Shown piece after piece: positions 27,089 to 56,604 of a stretch of 64,000 nucleotides of DNA. The notes below the pieces were generated by a model, which saw nothing but the letters and a program-made list of their open reading frames with translations, did no database searches and was not told the DNA's origin. Numbering within the stretch: the first letter of the stretch is position 1; every line of letters starts with the position of its first letter. The position numbers and the translations under genes are program-made. Source of the DNA: Listeria seeligeri serovar 1/2b str. SLCC3954 (GTDB lineage: Bacteria > Bacillota > Bacilli > Lactobacillales > Listeriaceae); the NCBI RefSeq assembly GCF_000027145.1, contig NC_013891.1, positions 868,001-932,000 of the forward strand. Direction: 5' to 3'.

Positions 27089-27167
27089 GAGAAACTTTGT
27101 TGAAATCTCATGAAATTATCATTTGCTTTTCAGCGCATTCTTTTTTAGAAAAGTTATTATATTTATA

Positions 27168-27275
27168 AGCTAACAACAAGCAAAACATTTTCATTTCTTT
27201 CCCTTTTTAGAATGAAAATCCCAAACTCCCTTTTAGCTAGTGCGGTTTACTCCCTTTTTCCGCACTAGTTTTTTT
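27168..27275 (+). ncRNA. Probable LhrC-family small RNA (possibly Rli22)
   Basis: A gene-free interval contains two hairpins with CU-rich loops. Hairpin A pairs ATTTTCATT (27187-27195) with AATGAAAAT (27211-27219) and has TTTCCCTTTT in its loop. A single-stranded linker carries TCCCAAACTCCC (27219-27230). The terminator hairpin pairs CTAGTGCGG (27237-27245) with CCGCACTAG (27260-27268), has ACTCCC in its loop, and ends in seven T. Three or more UCCC motifs in loop, linker and terminator loop is the layout described for Listeria LhrC1-5 and Rli22/Rli33-1. A -10-like TATATT at 27158-27163 would give about 107 nt. The 5' end is approximate. Confidence 0.78.
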
Positions 27276-33266: not shown

Positions 33267-33581
33267 TTGAGAGCAATATTGATTGGTGTATTAGTAGTTT
33301 TACTGATTGCAATGATACTTATCGTTTTATGGCCAGCAATTATGGCAACTATCGGGGCAATCCTTGGCTTTTGGTCATTGAAGAAACTTTTAGAAGCAAG
33401 ATCGCTAGGAGAAAAAATCGTTTATGGAGTTTTAATCGGCGTTGGTGCCTTAATCATTCTAGCAAACTTAAAAGGAATTTTAGTTGTCGCAATCATTGGA
33501 GCAATTATTTACTTCCTAACTAGAAATAAAAATAAACCTAAAAAAAATGATGATATCTTTGACTACCCATACAATAAATAA
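33267..33581 (+). CDS. liaI: LiaI-like small membrane protein
   Basis: A 104-residue protein with two closely spaced N-terminal hydrophobic segments, a short basic SLKKLLEARSLGEK loop, and two more hydrophobic stretches, ending in a Lys/Asn-rich tail. TTG start with AAGGAGGTAG. It directly precedes, and is coupled to, a PspA-like gene (15 bp), the arrangement of LiaI-LiaH. It would act as the membrane anchor recruiting LiaH upon envelope stress. From memory, the orthologous pair in L. monocytogenes is controlled by the LiaRS two-component system. Confidence 0.75.
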   Translation: MRAILIGVLVVLLIAMILIVLWPAIMATIGAILGFWSLKKLLEARSLGEKIVYGVLIGVGALIILANLKGILVVAIIGAIIYFLTRNKNKPKKNDDIFDYPYNK

Positions 33582-33596
33582 TTGGAGGAGAAAAAA

Positions 33597-34445
33597 ATGG
33601 CAAACCTTTTTGAAAAAATGAAACAATGGAATAAAGAAGTTAGTGACAAAATCGAAAAACGTGAAGAAAAACGTCGTAATTCGGTAAGTTATTATATGGA
33701 TAAAACAAAACAAGAAATGAAAGACGCAGAACGCATGGTAGAAAAACAACGTGAATTAAAATCTCTTTTCTATAAAGAATACAAAGAAATGGAAGTTTAT
33801 GTGGAAAAACGTCGTCATCAAGCTGCAATTGCAAAAGAAGCTGGCGAAACTAAACTTGCTGACTTTGCATTAGAAGAAGTTGCACAATACGAAGAACAAT
33901 TAGAAGCGACAAAAGCTCACTACGAACAAGCTTCTGAACAACTTGAAAAATTAGAACTACGCATGCACGAAATGCGCTTAAAATGGAAGAACCTAAAAAC
34001 ACAACATTTAGCTGAAATGGCTGAAAAAAATGCGACAGAAACTTCCGAAAAAATGGACAAAGTTATTCATGATATGAGCTGGGGTAGTGTAAGTGATTAT
34101 CACGAAGCACAAAAACAACGTGACTTGGCAGAAGAAGCTGAGAAAAAAGCTGACATGAGTAAAGAGCTTTCTCAATCATTTGATGATCTAATGGATGAAT
34201 TAGAAAAGAAAACGAAGAAGAGTAAAGAAGTTATTAAAGACAAAGCACAAAACTTTACTACGATGGTAGATGAAATTATTGAACGTGAAAAACAAAATTT
34301 CAAGAAACCTGAAAGAGCATCTATGGAAGACCAATTAAATGAACTTGAAAAAGAAGCTGCGAAAGAACAACCAAAAGAAGAAAAAGAAGTGCTTATCCCA
34401 GAATTAGAGAAAAAAGAAGAAACAAAAGAAGAAGACGACAAATAA
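33597..34445 (+). CDS. liaH: LiaH-like PspA/IM30 family envelope-stress protein
   Basis: A 282-residue, almost fully alpha-helical, highly charged coiled-coil protein. The N-terminal FEKMKQWNKEVSDKIEKREEK segment, the long central coiled coil (about residues 40-160) and the acidic Lys/Glu tail fit the ESCRT-III-like PspA/IM30/LiaH superfamily. It is longer than B. subtilis LiaH (about 225) by a charged C-terminal extension of around 50 residues. The ATG at 33597 follows TTGGAGGAG. Proposed role: oligomeric scaffold stabilising damaged membrane, anchored through LiaI. Confidence 0.75.
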   Translation: MANLFEKMKQWNKEVSDKIEKREEKRRNSVSYYMDKTKQEMKDAERMVEKQRELKSLFYKEYKEMEVYVEKRRHQAAIAKEAGETKLADFALEEVAQYEEQLEATKAHYEQASEQLEKLELRMHEMRLKWKNLKTQHLAEMAEKNATETSEKMDKVIHDMSWGSVSDYHEAQKQRDLAEEAEKKADMSKELSQSFDDLMDELEKKTKKSKEVIKDKAQNFTTMVDEIIEREKQNFKKPERASMEDQLNELEKEAAKEQPKEEKEVLIPELEKKEETKEEDDK

Positions 34446-36612: not shown

Positions 36613-36646
36613 AAAGGGATTTGGAGAAGTGCCAAGTCCCTTTTGT
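36613..36646 (+). terminator. Probable terminator of the flavin oxidoreductase operon
   Basis: AAAGGGA-TGG pairs with CCA-TCCCTTT (36613-36643), but the T-run is short. Confidence 0.6.
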
Positions 36647-36652
36647 GACAAT

Positions 36653-36776
36653 AATGTAAGATGAATGTAAGTTAAGACCAATGTTTCATCAGTTGACAAC
36701 CACTATAATAGAAATTAGGAGGTGGTAGTTATGCAGAAAATAACAAATATTACATCAATTATCTTCGTCTTAACAA
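36653..36776 (+). repeat. Duplicated promoter/start module, copy A
   Basis: Aligned without gaps to 38272-38363 over 92 nt, then, after a 12-nt deletion relative to copy B, identical over 32 nt. The block includes tandem TGTAAG sites (36655-36660 and 36666-36671, 11-bp period), an ATGTTT -35 position, TATAAT (36704-36709), the SD AGGAGGTGG and the first codons of the gene. Confidence 0.9.
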
Positions 36777-38254
36777 AGGAAGGTAACAATACGAATAAAA
36801 AACTTTGTCGTTATATTTTTATAAGTATTTTACTTTTCACAGCTATTTTTGTAGGAAGTTCAACTGTTCATGCAGCTGAAAAAAATTCGAGTACGATAGT
36901 TTATGACTATACTGATATTAATGCTTTAACGAAAGAACAAAAAGATAGCATAGTTAAAGGTAATCCGAATGAAACACATGCAAATGATTATGAAAATTAT
37001 CAATTTATTTATCAAGAAAAATCTTCACAAGCGCCTGTCAACCCAGCTGATAAGCCCCCGGGTGAACGGCTATTATTGAAAACTGGAGATTCAGCAACAA
37101 ATATTACTTTAATTATCCTAGGGTTTCTACTTGTTGGAGGAAGTGTTAGTGTTCTCGTTTGGAAAAAAGGTTATAGAAAGCAGGTTTTATTATTATTGGT
37201 AATGTTTGGTGGAAGTGGTTTACTAATAGGCCCCTCCATTCAAGCTGCGGAAAATAGTAACTTAAAACCACAAGAAAAAATAGTCTCTACAAAAGGAATT
37301 AAAGAAACAAAAAAACCTGCTCCTATTAGTGGATACAACTATGTTGGATATATTCGAACTGTTAAAAACGATAATAATCCGCCTACACCAATTCAACAAG
37401 GAAAAGTTGCGGTGAACTATCAAGATGAAGATGGAACCTCAATAGCTCCAAATGAGACACTAGAAGGAGAACTTGGTAAACCTTATTCTTCCTCAGTAAA
37501 AACAATTGCTGGTTATAAGTTTACGGAAGTTCGCGGGAATTCAACAGGAACCTTTACGAAAGATACGCAAACAGTCACCTACATTTATAAAAAGCTACCT
37601 ATTGCAGCTGCAAAAGTAACGGTCAATTATCTGAATGAAAATGGAAATCAAATCCATAAACCACAAATAATTAGTGGCAATGTGGGAGATAGTTATGACG
37701 CTTCATCAGCTACATATCAGTTGAAAATAGATGGCTATACTATGGACACCGCTAAAATGCCTAATAATGTAACTGGGAAATTATCTGAGCAAACTCAAGA
37801 AGTAAATTATGTATATAAGAAAGAAGTTCAGGATGTTACTCTTACTATTAAGTTTGTTGACTCAAGTGGTAATCCATTTATTTTACCTGATTTAACGACC
37901 TATAATGAAGGTTCATTCGTTCCGACTTATCCAAATTTAAATCAGTACCGGATGTTACTAGATTATAATCAGCAGGTATACTACCAAAACCAAGTAGTAC
38001 CTGATATTGTAATCAAAGGAAAAGAAGGTGAACCCTATTCATTACCAAAAAAAATGATTTTTAATATTTTAGATGATCAAGGGAATCCAGTTAGATTTAT
38101 TGCCTCAGCAAATCCAGATGGTAGTAGTAACGGTATTATGAATTGGCAAAATCATTCTAGCACGCCTACTAATCGAGAAGGAGTATTACCTTCTGAAAAT
38201 GTCGTGGTTACTTATCAAATCGAAACTTATAGTATTGCAACGCCAGAACCATGA
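36731..38254 (+). CDS. Chimeric MucBP-repeat surface protein with degenerate internal sorting signal
   Basis: A 507-residue protein. The first 15 codons come from the duplicated module. Residues 21-48 are a signal peptide ending VHA, and its own former start seems to be the ACG at 36791, seven bases after AAAGGAAGG. Residues 115-119 read LLKTG with a following hydrophobic segment and KKGYRK tail: a cell-wall sorting signal with Pro changed to Leu. Directly after it comes a second signal-peptide-like helix (151-171, ending IQA). Two MucBP repeats (about 228-292 and 299-367) and a third related beta domain follow. The C-terminus lacks LPXTG. It looks like two surface-protein genes fused in frame, and may be non-functional or membrane-tethered. 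Confidence 0.7.
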   Translation: MQKITNITSIIFVLTKEGNNTNKKLCRYIFISILLFTAIFVGSSTVHAAEKNSSTIVYDYTDINALTKEQKDSIVKGNPNETHANDYENYQFIYQEKSSQAPVNPADKPPGERLLLKTGDSATNITLIILGFLLVGGSVSVLVWKKGYRKQVLLLLVMFGGSGLLIGPSIQAAENSNLKPQEKIVSTKGIKETKKPAPISGYNYVGYIRTVKNDNNPPTPIQQGKVAVNYQDEDGTSIAPNETLEGELGKPYSSSVKTIAGYKFTEVRGNSTGTFTKDTQTVTYIYKKLPIAAAKVTVNYLNENGNQIHKPQIISGNVGDSYDASSATYQLKIDGYTMDTAKMPNNVTGKLSEQTQEVNYVYKKEVQDVTLTIKFVDSSGNPFILPDLTTYNEGSFVPTYPNLNQYRMLLDYNQQVYYQNQVVPDIVIKGKEGEPYSLPKKMIFNILDDQGNPVRFIASANPDGSSNGIMNWQNHSSTPTNREGVLPSENVVVTYQIETYSIATPEP

Positions 38255-38271
38255 TACCTTTTTCTGACTAA

Positions 38272-38407
38272 AATGTAAGGTAATTGTAAGCGAAAACCAA
38301 TGTTTCACAAGTCGGCATCCCCTATAATAGAAATTAGGAGGTGGTAGTTATGCAGAAAGTAACGTCTTGGAAAACAAATATTACATCAATTATCTTCGTC
38401 TTAACAA
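38272..38407 (+). repeat. Duplicated promoter/start module, copy B
   Basis: Second copy, with TGTAAG at 38274-38279 and 38285-38290, ATGTTT, TATAAT (38323-38328) and the same SD and start. It keeps 12 nt (38364-38375) absent from copy A. Its coding continuation is the intact small membrane protein, so copy B is probably the source. Confidence 0.9.
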
Positions 38408-38628
38408 TGGTAGCTTTAGCCTTATTGATTTGGACAGAAAGTATTTTTGCTTCATATGCGTTCTTGCTTTTACTTGTAGGTGGTTTTATCATGAGTGCCA
38501 TTGGTATCTTTAGTAAAAAAGAGAAAAAATCTTTCCAACTAATAGCTGTTTTTATTATTTTTGGTTTAGCAATCTTTTGGATTAGTTGTGTGATGTATTT
38601 AGGATTTAACGGATTTTATGATAATTAA
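38350..38628 (+). CDS. Small three-span membrane protein of unknown function
   Basis: A 92-residue protein with hydrophobic segments at about residues 10-30, 33-52 and 62-84, and a basic FSKKEKKS loop. The ATG at 38350 has a strong AGGAGGTGG SD. No family recognised. Its first 17 residues are shared, apart from a four-residue gap, with the start of the upstream MucBP protein because of the duplicated module. It is controlled by the copy B promoter and ends at a terminator. Confidence 0.7.
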   Translation: MQKVTSWKTNITSIIFVLTMVALALLIWTESIFASYAFLLLLVGGFIMSAIGIFSKKEKKSFQLIAVFIIFGLAIFWISCVMYLGFNGFYDN

Positions 38629-56565: not shown

Positions 56566-56604
56566 CTAATTACATTTTTGTAAGGTTGAATAAATTTACT
56601 TGTT

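Follow-up and report, generated by a model that had tools for sequence, protein, structure and literature searches.

The locus analyzed here raises the question of how a gene encoding a MucBP-type surface protein came to begin with the same promoter and translation start sequences as the small membrane-protein gene downstream of it, and what this may have meant for its regulation. Both genes lie in a window of 64,000 nucleotides (the whole stretch of DNA that was analyzed; G000:C1:868001-932000) of a single-contig genome of 2,797,636 bases. They are each preceded by one copy of a direct repeat, copy A at 36638-36744 and copy B at 38257-38363, offset by 1,619 nt and identical at 90 of 107 ungapped positions. 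Within this repeat, the gapless 92-nt alignment with which the original prediction started (36653-36744 and 38272-38363) was recovered with 79 identical positions and the 37-nt identical core. The 12-nt indel that it placed downstream of the repeat is also present, and is in frame, but the identical stretch that follows was undercounted at 32 nt and measures 35 nt (36742-36776 and 38373-38407). The local alignment of the two copies scores 98.5; the highest of 500 shuffles reached 20.0, and no other tile of the window exceeded 19.5.

Each copy holds tandem TGTAAG hexamers, a TATAAT -10 hexamer, a strong Shine-Dalgarno sequence and the first codons from an ATG, as had been predicted, and these elements are equally spaced in both. 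In copy A, on the + strand, the tandem TGTAAG-N5-TGTAAG (36655-36671), whose hexamers are identical to those of copy B, is followed by the -10 (36704-36709), which lacks a good -35, by the Shine-Dalgarno sequence AGGAGGTGG (36717-36725), located inside the 37-nt identical run, and by the putatively captured start codon and first small-gene codons (36731-36776), which are 12 nt (four codons) shorter than in copy B. The equivalent elements of copy B, on the same strand, are at 38274-38290, 38323-38328 and 38336-38344 (again AGGAGGTGG). The tandems were located by pattern scanning, and the other elements by reading the sequence and, for copy B, by comparing spacings and by the alignment with copy A. 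An element that had escaped the original prediction, a box resembling the sites of VirR target genes, overlaps the first TGTAAG; in copy A it reads TGACAATAATGTAAG (36646-36660, +; an exact match to TGACWAWAWTGTAAG) and in copy B TGACTAAAATGTAAG (38265-38279, +). The -10 spacing of copy A is repeated in copy B and in the genomes G015, G024 and G006, and a sigma-70 scan of the + strand recognised no match in either copy. Two matches to TGTAAG-N5-TGTAAG are present in the window, a number reached by none of 100 window shuffles, and a whole-genome pattern scan found no further exact occurrence in the 2.8 Mb.

In agreement with the original prediction, copy B continues into an intact gene for a small membrane protein (92 codons, 38350-38628, +) and copy A into a MucBP-type gene (507 codons from the captured ATG, 36731-38254, +). 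The product of the latter matches Pfam MucBP in two stretches with 142.9 bits (curated cut-off 23), and its score against the LPXTG anchor profile, 15.7 bits, falls below the cut-off of 15.9. An LLKTG anchor-like region is found at residues 117-146 of 507, away from the C terminus. We also observed that the protein resembles two proteins joined together: a short LPXTG-type part, consisting of LLKTGD, a transmembrane stretch and a basic tail with an NCBIfam EF0750-type match below cut-off, and then a second signal-peptide-like stretch with the MucBP repeats. The same two-part organisation, with variation in the LLKTG motif, is seen in 13 of 13 aligned MucBP sequences, the window's included.

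The order in which the two copies arose can be read from related genomes. Only one of 25 Listeria genomes, that of the window, has the two-copy arrangement, and since the sample holds one genome per species this state could be strain-specific. An arrangement ancestral to all Listeria species, the outcome that the original prediction had named as contrary to it, was thus not what this sample showed. Genomes with one module, which it had expected to reveal the order of events, do exist. In G013 and G015, at the same locus and with the same gene order as in the window, the MucBP gene has its own leader, Shine-Dalgarno sequence and ATG without a module upstream, and the only module precedes the small gene. 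In G024, a module and an intact small gene precede nagA, no orthologue of the window's MucBP gene is found there, and the full-length orthologue of this genome is located elsewhere. The DNA search for the module was of limited sensitivity, since it overlooked the single, diverged copy in G024. In 14 other genomes the region preceding nagA was inspected, and 11 of them have neither gene at this place. As a separate observation, the surface genes located between the LiaH-like gene and nagA vary from species to species; in G024, another MucBP-type protein is encoded there, on the opposite strand (L079 1089-1928).

Full-length matches to the MucBP protein were found in 13 of the 25 genomes (the window's and 12 others); these 13 were aligned, and the partial matches in the remaining genomes were left out of the alignment. 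At the same locus in G013 and G015, the recipient gene occurs free of the captured sequence, and none of the 12 orthologues is preceded by the module, although this absence is not absolute. Moreover, all 12 have an ATG at the position where the window gene has ACG (36791-36793, +). Immediately upstream lies a relic of a native leader (36777-36790, +), with an SD-like AAAGGAAGG that begins at 36777 or just before it and is now coding; it aligns to AAAGGAGGGTAACCAT, which precedes the MucBP ATG of G013. Neither the ACG nor the relic inside the reading frame had been noticed in the original prediction. Within its first 110 codons, the reading frame offers no in-frame ATG, GTG or TTG other than the captured ATG. 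Because the native ATG has become ACG, translation must therefore begin at the captured ATG. The single module of G013 and G015, the ATG in 12 of 12 orthologues, and the ACG with its relic Shine-Dalgarno sequence together argue that the MucBP leader came first and that the module was added later.

These comparisons support the view that a gene formerly equipped with signals of its own received a copy of the promoter, Shine-Dalgarno sequence, ATG and some 15 codons, and capture of a promoter and start by the MucBP gene thus appears well supported. The duplication proposed in the original prediction stands, with the correction that the native start codon was also lost. The comparisons also support, at the level of sequence, a change beyond the mere acquisition of a module, in which the MucBP gene would now depend on the captured start codon. 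The ACG comes from a single assembly, and it could be a sequencing or assembly error that hides a native ATG still used behind a merely added promoter. We consider this very improbable; the frame from the captured ATG is open through that codon regardless, and the capture of the promoter and Shine-Dalgarno sequence would stand.

The differences between the two copies are unevenly distributed: 16 of 66 positions differ upstream of the -10 and only 1 of 73 from the -10 on (p 2e-5). Copy B and the G015 module show no such contrast, with 43 of 59 positions identical upstream of the -10 and 63 of 91 from the -10 on. A single clean copying event is therefore too simple, and the pattern suggests that the start region was converted later, or that there was a second event. 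At the right junction, donor and recipient share the sequence TTAA-AAAGG. Some of the differences upstream of the -10 could be polarised with outgroups; nine of these fall in copy A and five in copy B. This pattern also bears on whether the duplication could predate the split from G013 and G015, with these two later losing the module before the MucBP gene. On the one hand, copies A and B are identical at 44 of 59 positions upstream of the -10, similar to the 43 of 59 between copy B and G015, and later gene conversion could make the start region look young. On the other hand, G013 and G015 keep the full native leader, Shine-Dalgarno sequence and ATG, a remnant of which is still present in the window, and at five columns upstream of the -10 the copies agree on a base that all three outgroup modules lack. 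An older duplication is, in our judgement, improbable, and we continue with a capture after the split.

The donor gene is retained: copy B is still located upstream of its own intact gene, which is under constraint (dN 0.22 and dS 0.97 against the G024 orthologue). Four of the 25 genomes have a match to the small protein, namely those of the window and G024, where it is intact, and G013 and G015, where the frames are broken. In the latter two, the matches are split over frames with internal stops (L077 3690-3970 and L078 3580-3840), and the promoter box ahead of the broken genes is still recognisable by eye.

It is also conceivable that copy A is a remnant and that the MucBP gene is heading for loss. 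The direct repeats, which are 1,619 nt apart and share identical stretches of 37 and 35 nt, would allow a crossover that deletes the gene and leaves a single module, and the native start codon is already gone. However, the 507-codon frame is intact and constrained relative to G015 (dN 0.22, dS 0.97, dN/dS about 0.23), and the hexamers of copy A have been kept while their neighbours changed: 0 of 12 hexamer bases differ between the copies, against 16 of 54 other bases upstream of the -10 (p 0.025). We regard impending loss as quite unlikely.

What the capture may have changed is indicated by the box. The module box TGACWAWAATGTAAG resembles sites located, in this genome, before the dlt operon, mprF, an AnrAB-like transporter and a DUF1093 gene, and its likeness to sites of the VirR-target type is, on sequence grounds, a new observation here. 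Each of the four has a similar upstream site: that of the dlt operon, a reference site outside the module recovered by the box scan and likely a VirR site, is TTACAAAAATGTAAT (56569-56583, - strand), and others lie before a VanZ-like gene followed by mprF and before an AnrAB-like ABC transporter with an FtsX-type permease. Exact TGACWAWAWTGTAAG occurs three times in the genome, in copy A, in copy B and in one DUF1093 promoter. From its position we take this DUF1093 gene to be lmo2156, and the AnrAB-like transporter presumably corresponds to anrAB. In L. monocytogenes, one paper lists anrAB, dltA, mprF and lmo2156 as VirR-regulated (PMC8865564), and another states that VirR regulates anrAB, dltABCD and mprF (PMC7828314). 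That others named these kinds of genes as VirR targets is the independent part of the case for VirR. According to PMC12791056, L. monocytogenes has another YxeA-type (DUF1093) gene, lmo2568, that is under LiaSR control, so membership of the DUF1093 family alone is no pointer to VirR.

A box matrix was built from the four sites (dlt, mprF operon, AnrAB-like and DUF1093), which themselves score between 10.99 and 16.79 when left out one at a time. When every window position is scored on both strands, the boxes of copies B and A rank third (17.8) and fourth (14.92), after the dlt training site and one site inside coding sequence, a ranking that is partly circular because the training sites were found through their similarity to the module. 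A single i.i.d. random strand of 2.8 Mb contains seven positions that reach the score of copy A and none that reach that of copy B. In the 400 nt preceding the 12 MucBP orthologues, the highest score is 9.03, compared with 14.92 in copy A; the orthologous G013 module itself scores only 7.71, below some of these upstream regions, so a low score is no proof that a box is absent. Over the genome as a whole, the box shows no enrichment of near-matches (78 against 80 for the control), and it is therefore informative only when nearly exact and in context. Fifteen of the 78 were opened with their neighbourhoods (14 fetched regions), some of them picked because VirR targets were expected nearby: two are located shortly upstream of VirR-target-type genes (the mprF operon and the AnrAB-like transporter), and the other 13 lie inside reading frames or before no recognisable target. 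Also among the 78, but outside the 15 opened, are the sites of dlt and DUF1093. The chance of a near-match in the right direction within a 150-nt promoter stretch is about 0.002, a post hoc figure, as the pattern had been shaped in part by the DUF1093 site.

The DUF1093 promoters were compared across genomes. Upstream regions were fetched for 40 of 77 DUF1093 matches, and 15 of the 40 were aligned. GACAAAA(A/T)TGTAAG is present in 22 of the 40, from 22 different genomes, and the reversed-motif control in none. The module has this motif in common with them, in copy B as TGACTAAAATGTAAG and in copy A as TGACAATAATGTAAG. TGTAA-N6-TGTAA occurs in 17 of the 40 regions, in 16 of which it is a separate pair near the gene start, unlike the geometry of the module. 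With the -10 included, TGTAA-N6-TGTAA-N(30-36)-TATAAT gave six matches in the 25 genomes, against one for the control pattern: copies A and B, the G015 and G024 modules, and two further sites, one in G021 and the other ahead of a DUF1093 gene in G006. The last of these is found in a distant Listeria genome (L105 1460-1565), with the same box, tandem TGTAAG and -10 spacing. By our own reading of the likely -10, the distance from box to -10 is about one helical turn longer in the module than in the DUF1093 promoter. The operator of the S. aureus regulator GraR, ACAAA-TTTGT, is called similar to the suggested VirR site in a passage of PMC3128592; relative to these 10 nt, copies A and B and the mprF site each have three mismatches, the dlt and DUF1093 sites two, and the AnrAB-like site one.

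The tandem hexamers had at first favoured WalR, which we have since demoted from first choice to a rival. Under this alternative, WalR or another OmpR-type regulator would act through the tandem TGTAAG, and the resemblance to VirR sites would be incidental. The half-sites are 11 nt apart, which is the WalR geometry TGTWAH-N5-TGTWAH as given in a portion of PMC4168254; both copies agree with TGTHH-N6-WGTNDD, the less stringent motif of S. aureus (PMC10746227); and the second TGTAAG keeps at least five of its six bases in five of five modules. However, the sixth base of both hexamers in both copies is G, which falls outside H, so that TGTWAH-N5-TGTWAH itself is not matched; TGTWAH tandems are not enriched in the genome (36 against 37); and the conserved stretch reaches upstream of the tandem and matches the dlt, mprF, AnrAB-like and DUF1093 sites. 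We consider a WalR-type regulator rather unlikely. Control of the module by a VirR-type system is the best current reading of what the capture would have done, and recruitment of the MucBP surface protein into a VirR-type regulon seems likely, with VirR as the putative regulator. LisR was also considered and rejected, as the upstream regions of the four LhrC loci of the genome share, by eye, no evident element with the module. Rfam matches in the window include an LhrC small RNA at 27165-27275 and rli53 at 1883-2054.

A mobile origin of the region was likewise rejected: no plasmid or phage record spans it, and only about 100 nt at the nagA end match Listeria records (two plasmid, four phage). 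Contig scans with the small protein and the MucBP protein returned no relative, in a search from which records near the window's own were possibly excluded, and a pattern of the 36-nt core had no match in viral contigs. One record filed as a plasmid, NZ_CP030101.1 (2.9 Mb), is a Listeria chromosome on its size. Just upstream of the locus, at 33267-34445, the window contains an lmo0954-family membrane gene and a LiaH/PspA-like gene; in L. monocytogenes, lmo0954-0955 are described as LiaSR-regulated in a section of PMC12791056. A literature search for Listeria seeligeri together with MucBP found nothing.

Taken together, we propose the following course of events. After the split from the G013/G015 lineage, about 130 nt comprising the regulator box, -10, Shine-Dalgarno sequence, ATG and first codons of the small membrane-protein gene would have been copied 1.6 kb upstream, where they would have replaced the promoter region of a MucBP gene that already owned a leader. 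The right junction would have formed at the short TTAA-AAAGG beside the native Shine-Dalgarno sequence, fusing the copy in frame; the copying mechanism itself we infer. The native ATG would then have changed to ACG, and translation from the captured ATG would add 20 residues before the old start, presumably with secretion maintained despite the longer N terminus. Given that the box resembles sites of VirR-regulated gene types, the MucBP protein and the small protein would probably be made together, through activation, when a VirR-type two-component system senses antimicrobial envelope stress. As a whole, module capture after the split with VirR-type co-expression is the explanation that we hold with good confidence. 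The narrower statement, that an adhesin-like gene joined a VirR-type regulon by the copying of promoter, ribosome binding site and start, and was then locked in by loss of its start codon, we consider evenly balanced.

Several known systems may be compared with this case. Like InlJ and other Listeria MucBP surface proteins, the protein combines MucBP repeats with a signal peptide; it differs from the InlJ type in its internal LLKTG-type anchor region, which is followed by a second signal-peptide-like segment. The module box resembles sites before the same kinds of genes as those listed for the VirR regulon of L. monocytogenes in the relevant parts of PMC8865564 and PMC7828314. However, the targets in the window encode a surface protein of the MucBP type and a small membrane protein, whereas VirR and GraR regulons involve charge-modifying enzymes and a BceAB-type transporter. 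The module also differs from the GraR operator, in that its box has mismatches at 3 of 10 positions and a second TGTAAG lies one helical turn downstream.

Promoter capture by duplication reportedly also occurred at citT in the E. coli long-term evolution experiment. There, as here, a duplication sets an existing promoter before a gene, and the donor copy stays in place; the timing of expression of the gene is thereby altered at citT and would be so in the window. In the window, on the other hand, the capture would also have taken the Shine-Dalgarno sequence, start codon and first codons, and the native start was lost; moreover, the case is a natural one, in which the module-free arrangement survives in related genomes. 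Events of this kind are already known; what makes the locus a good natural example is how much was captured, that the start became locked in, and that the regulon has probably changed. As a rule, the entry of genes into regulons has to be deduced from binding sites that lie scattered. In the present case, the donor copy, the relic leader, the lost start and the module-free relatives are all present, and the order of events is therefore readable. If VirR control holds true, antimicrobial stress would set surface composition in this species in a way that is unexpected in the relatives examined, and the locus would represent, in contrast to the experimental citT case, a natural recruitment to a regulon whose before and after states are both kept in related species.
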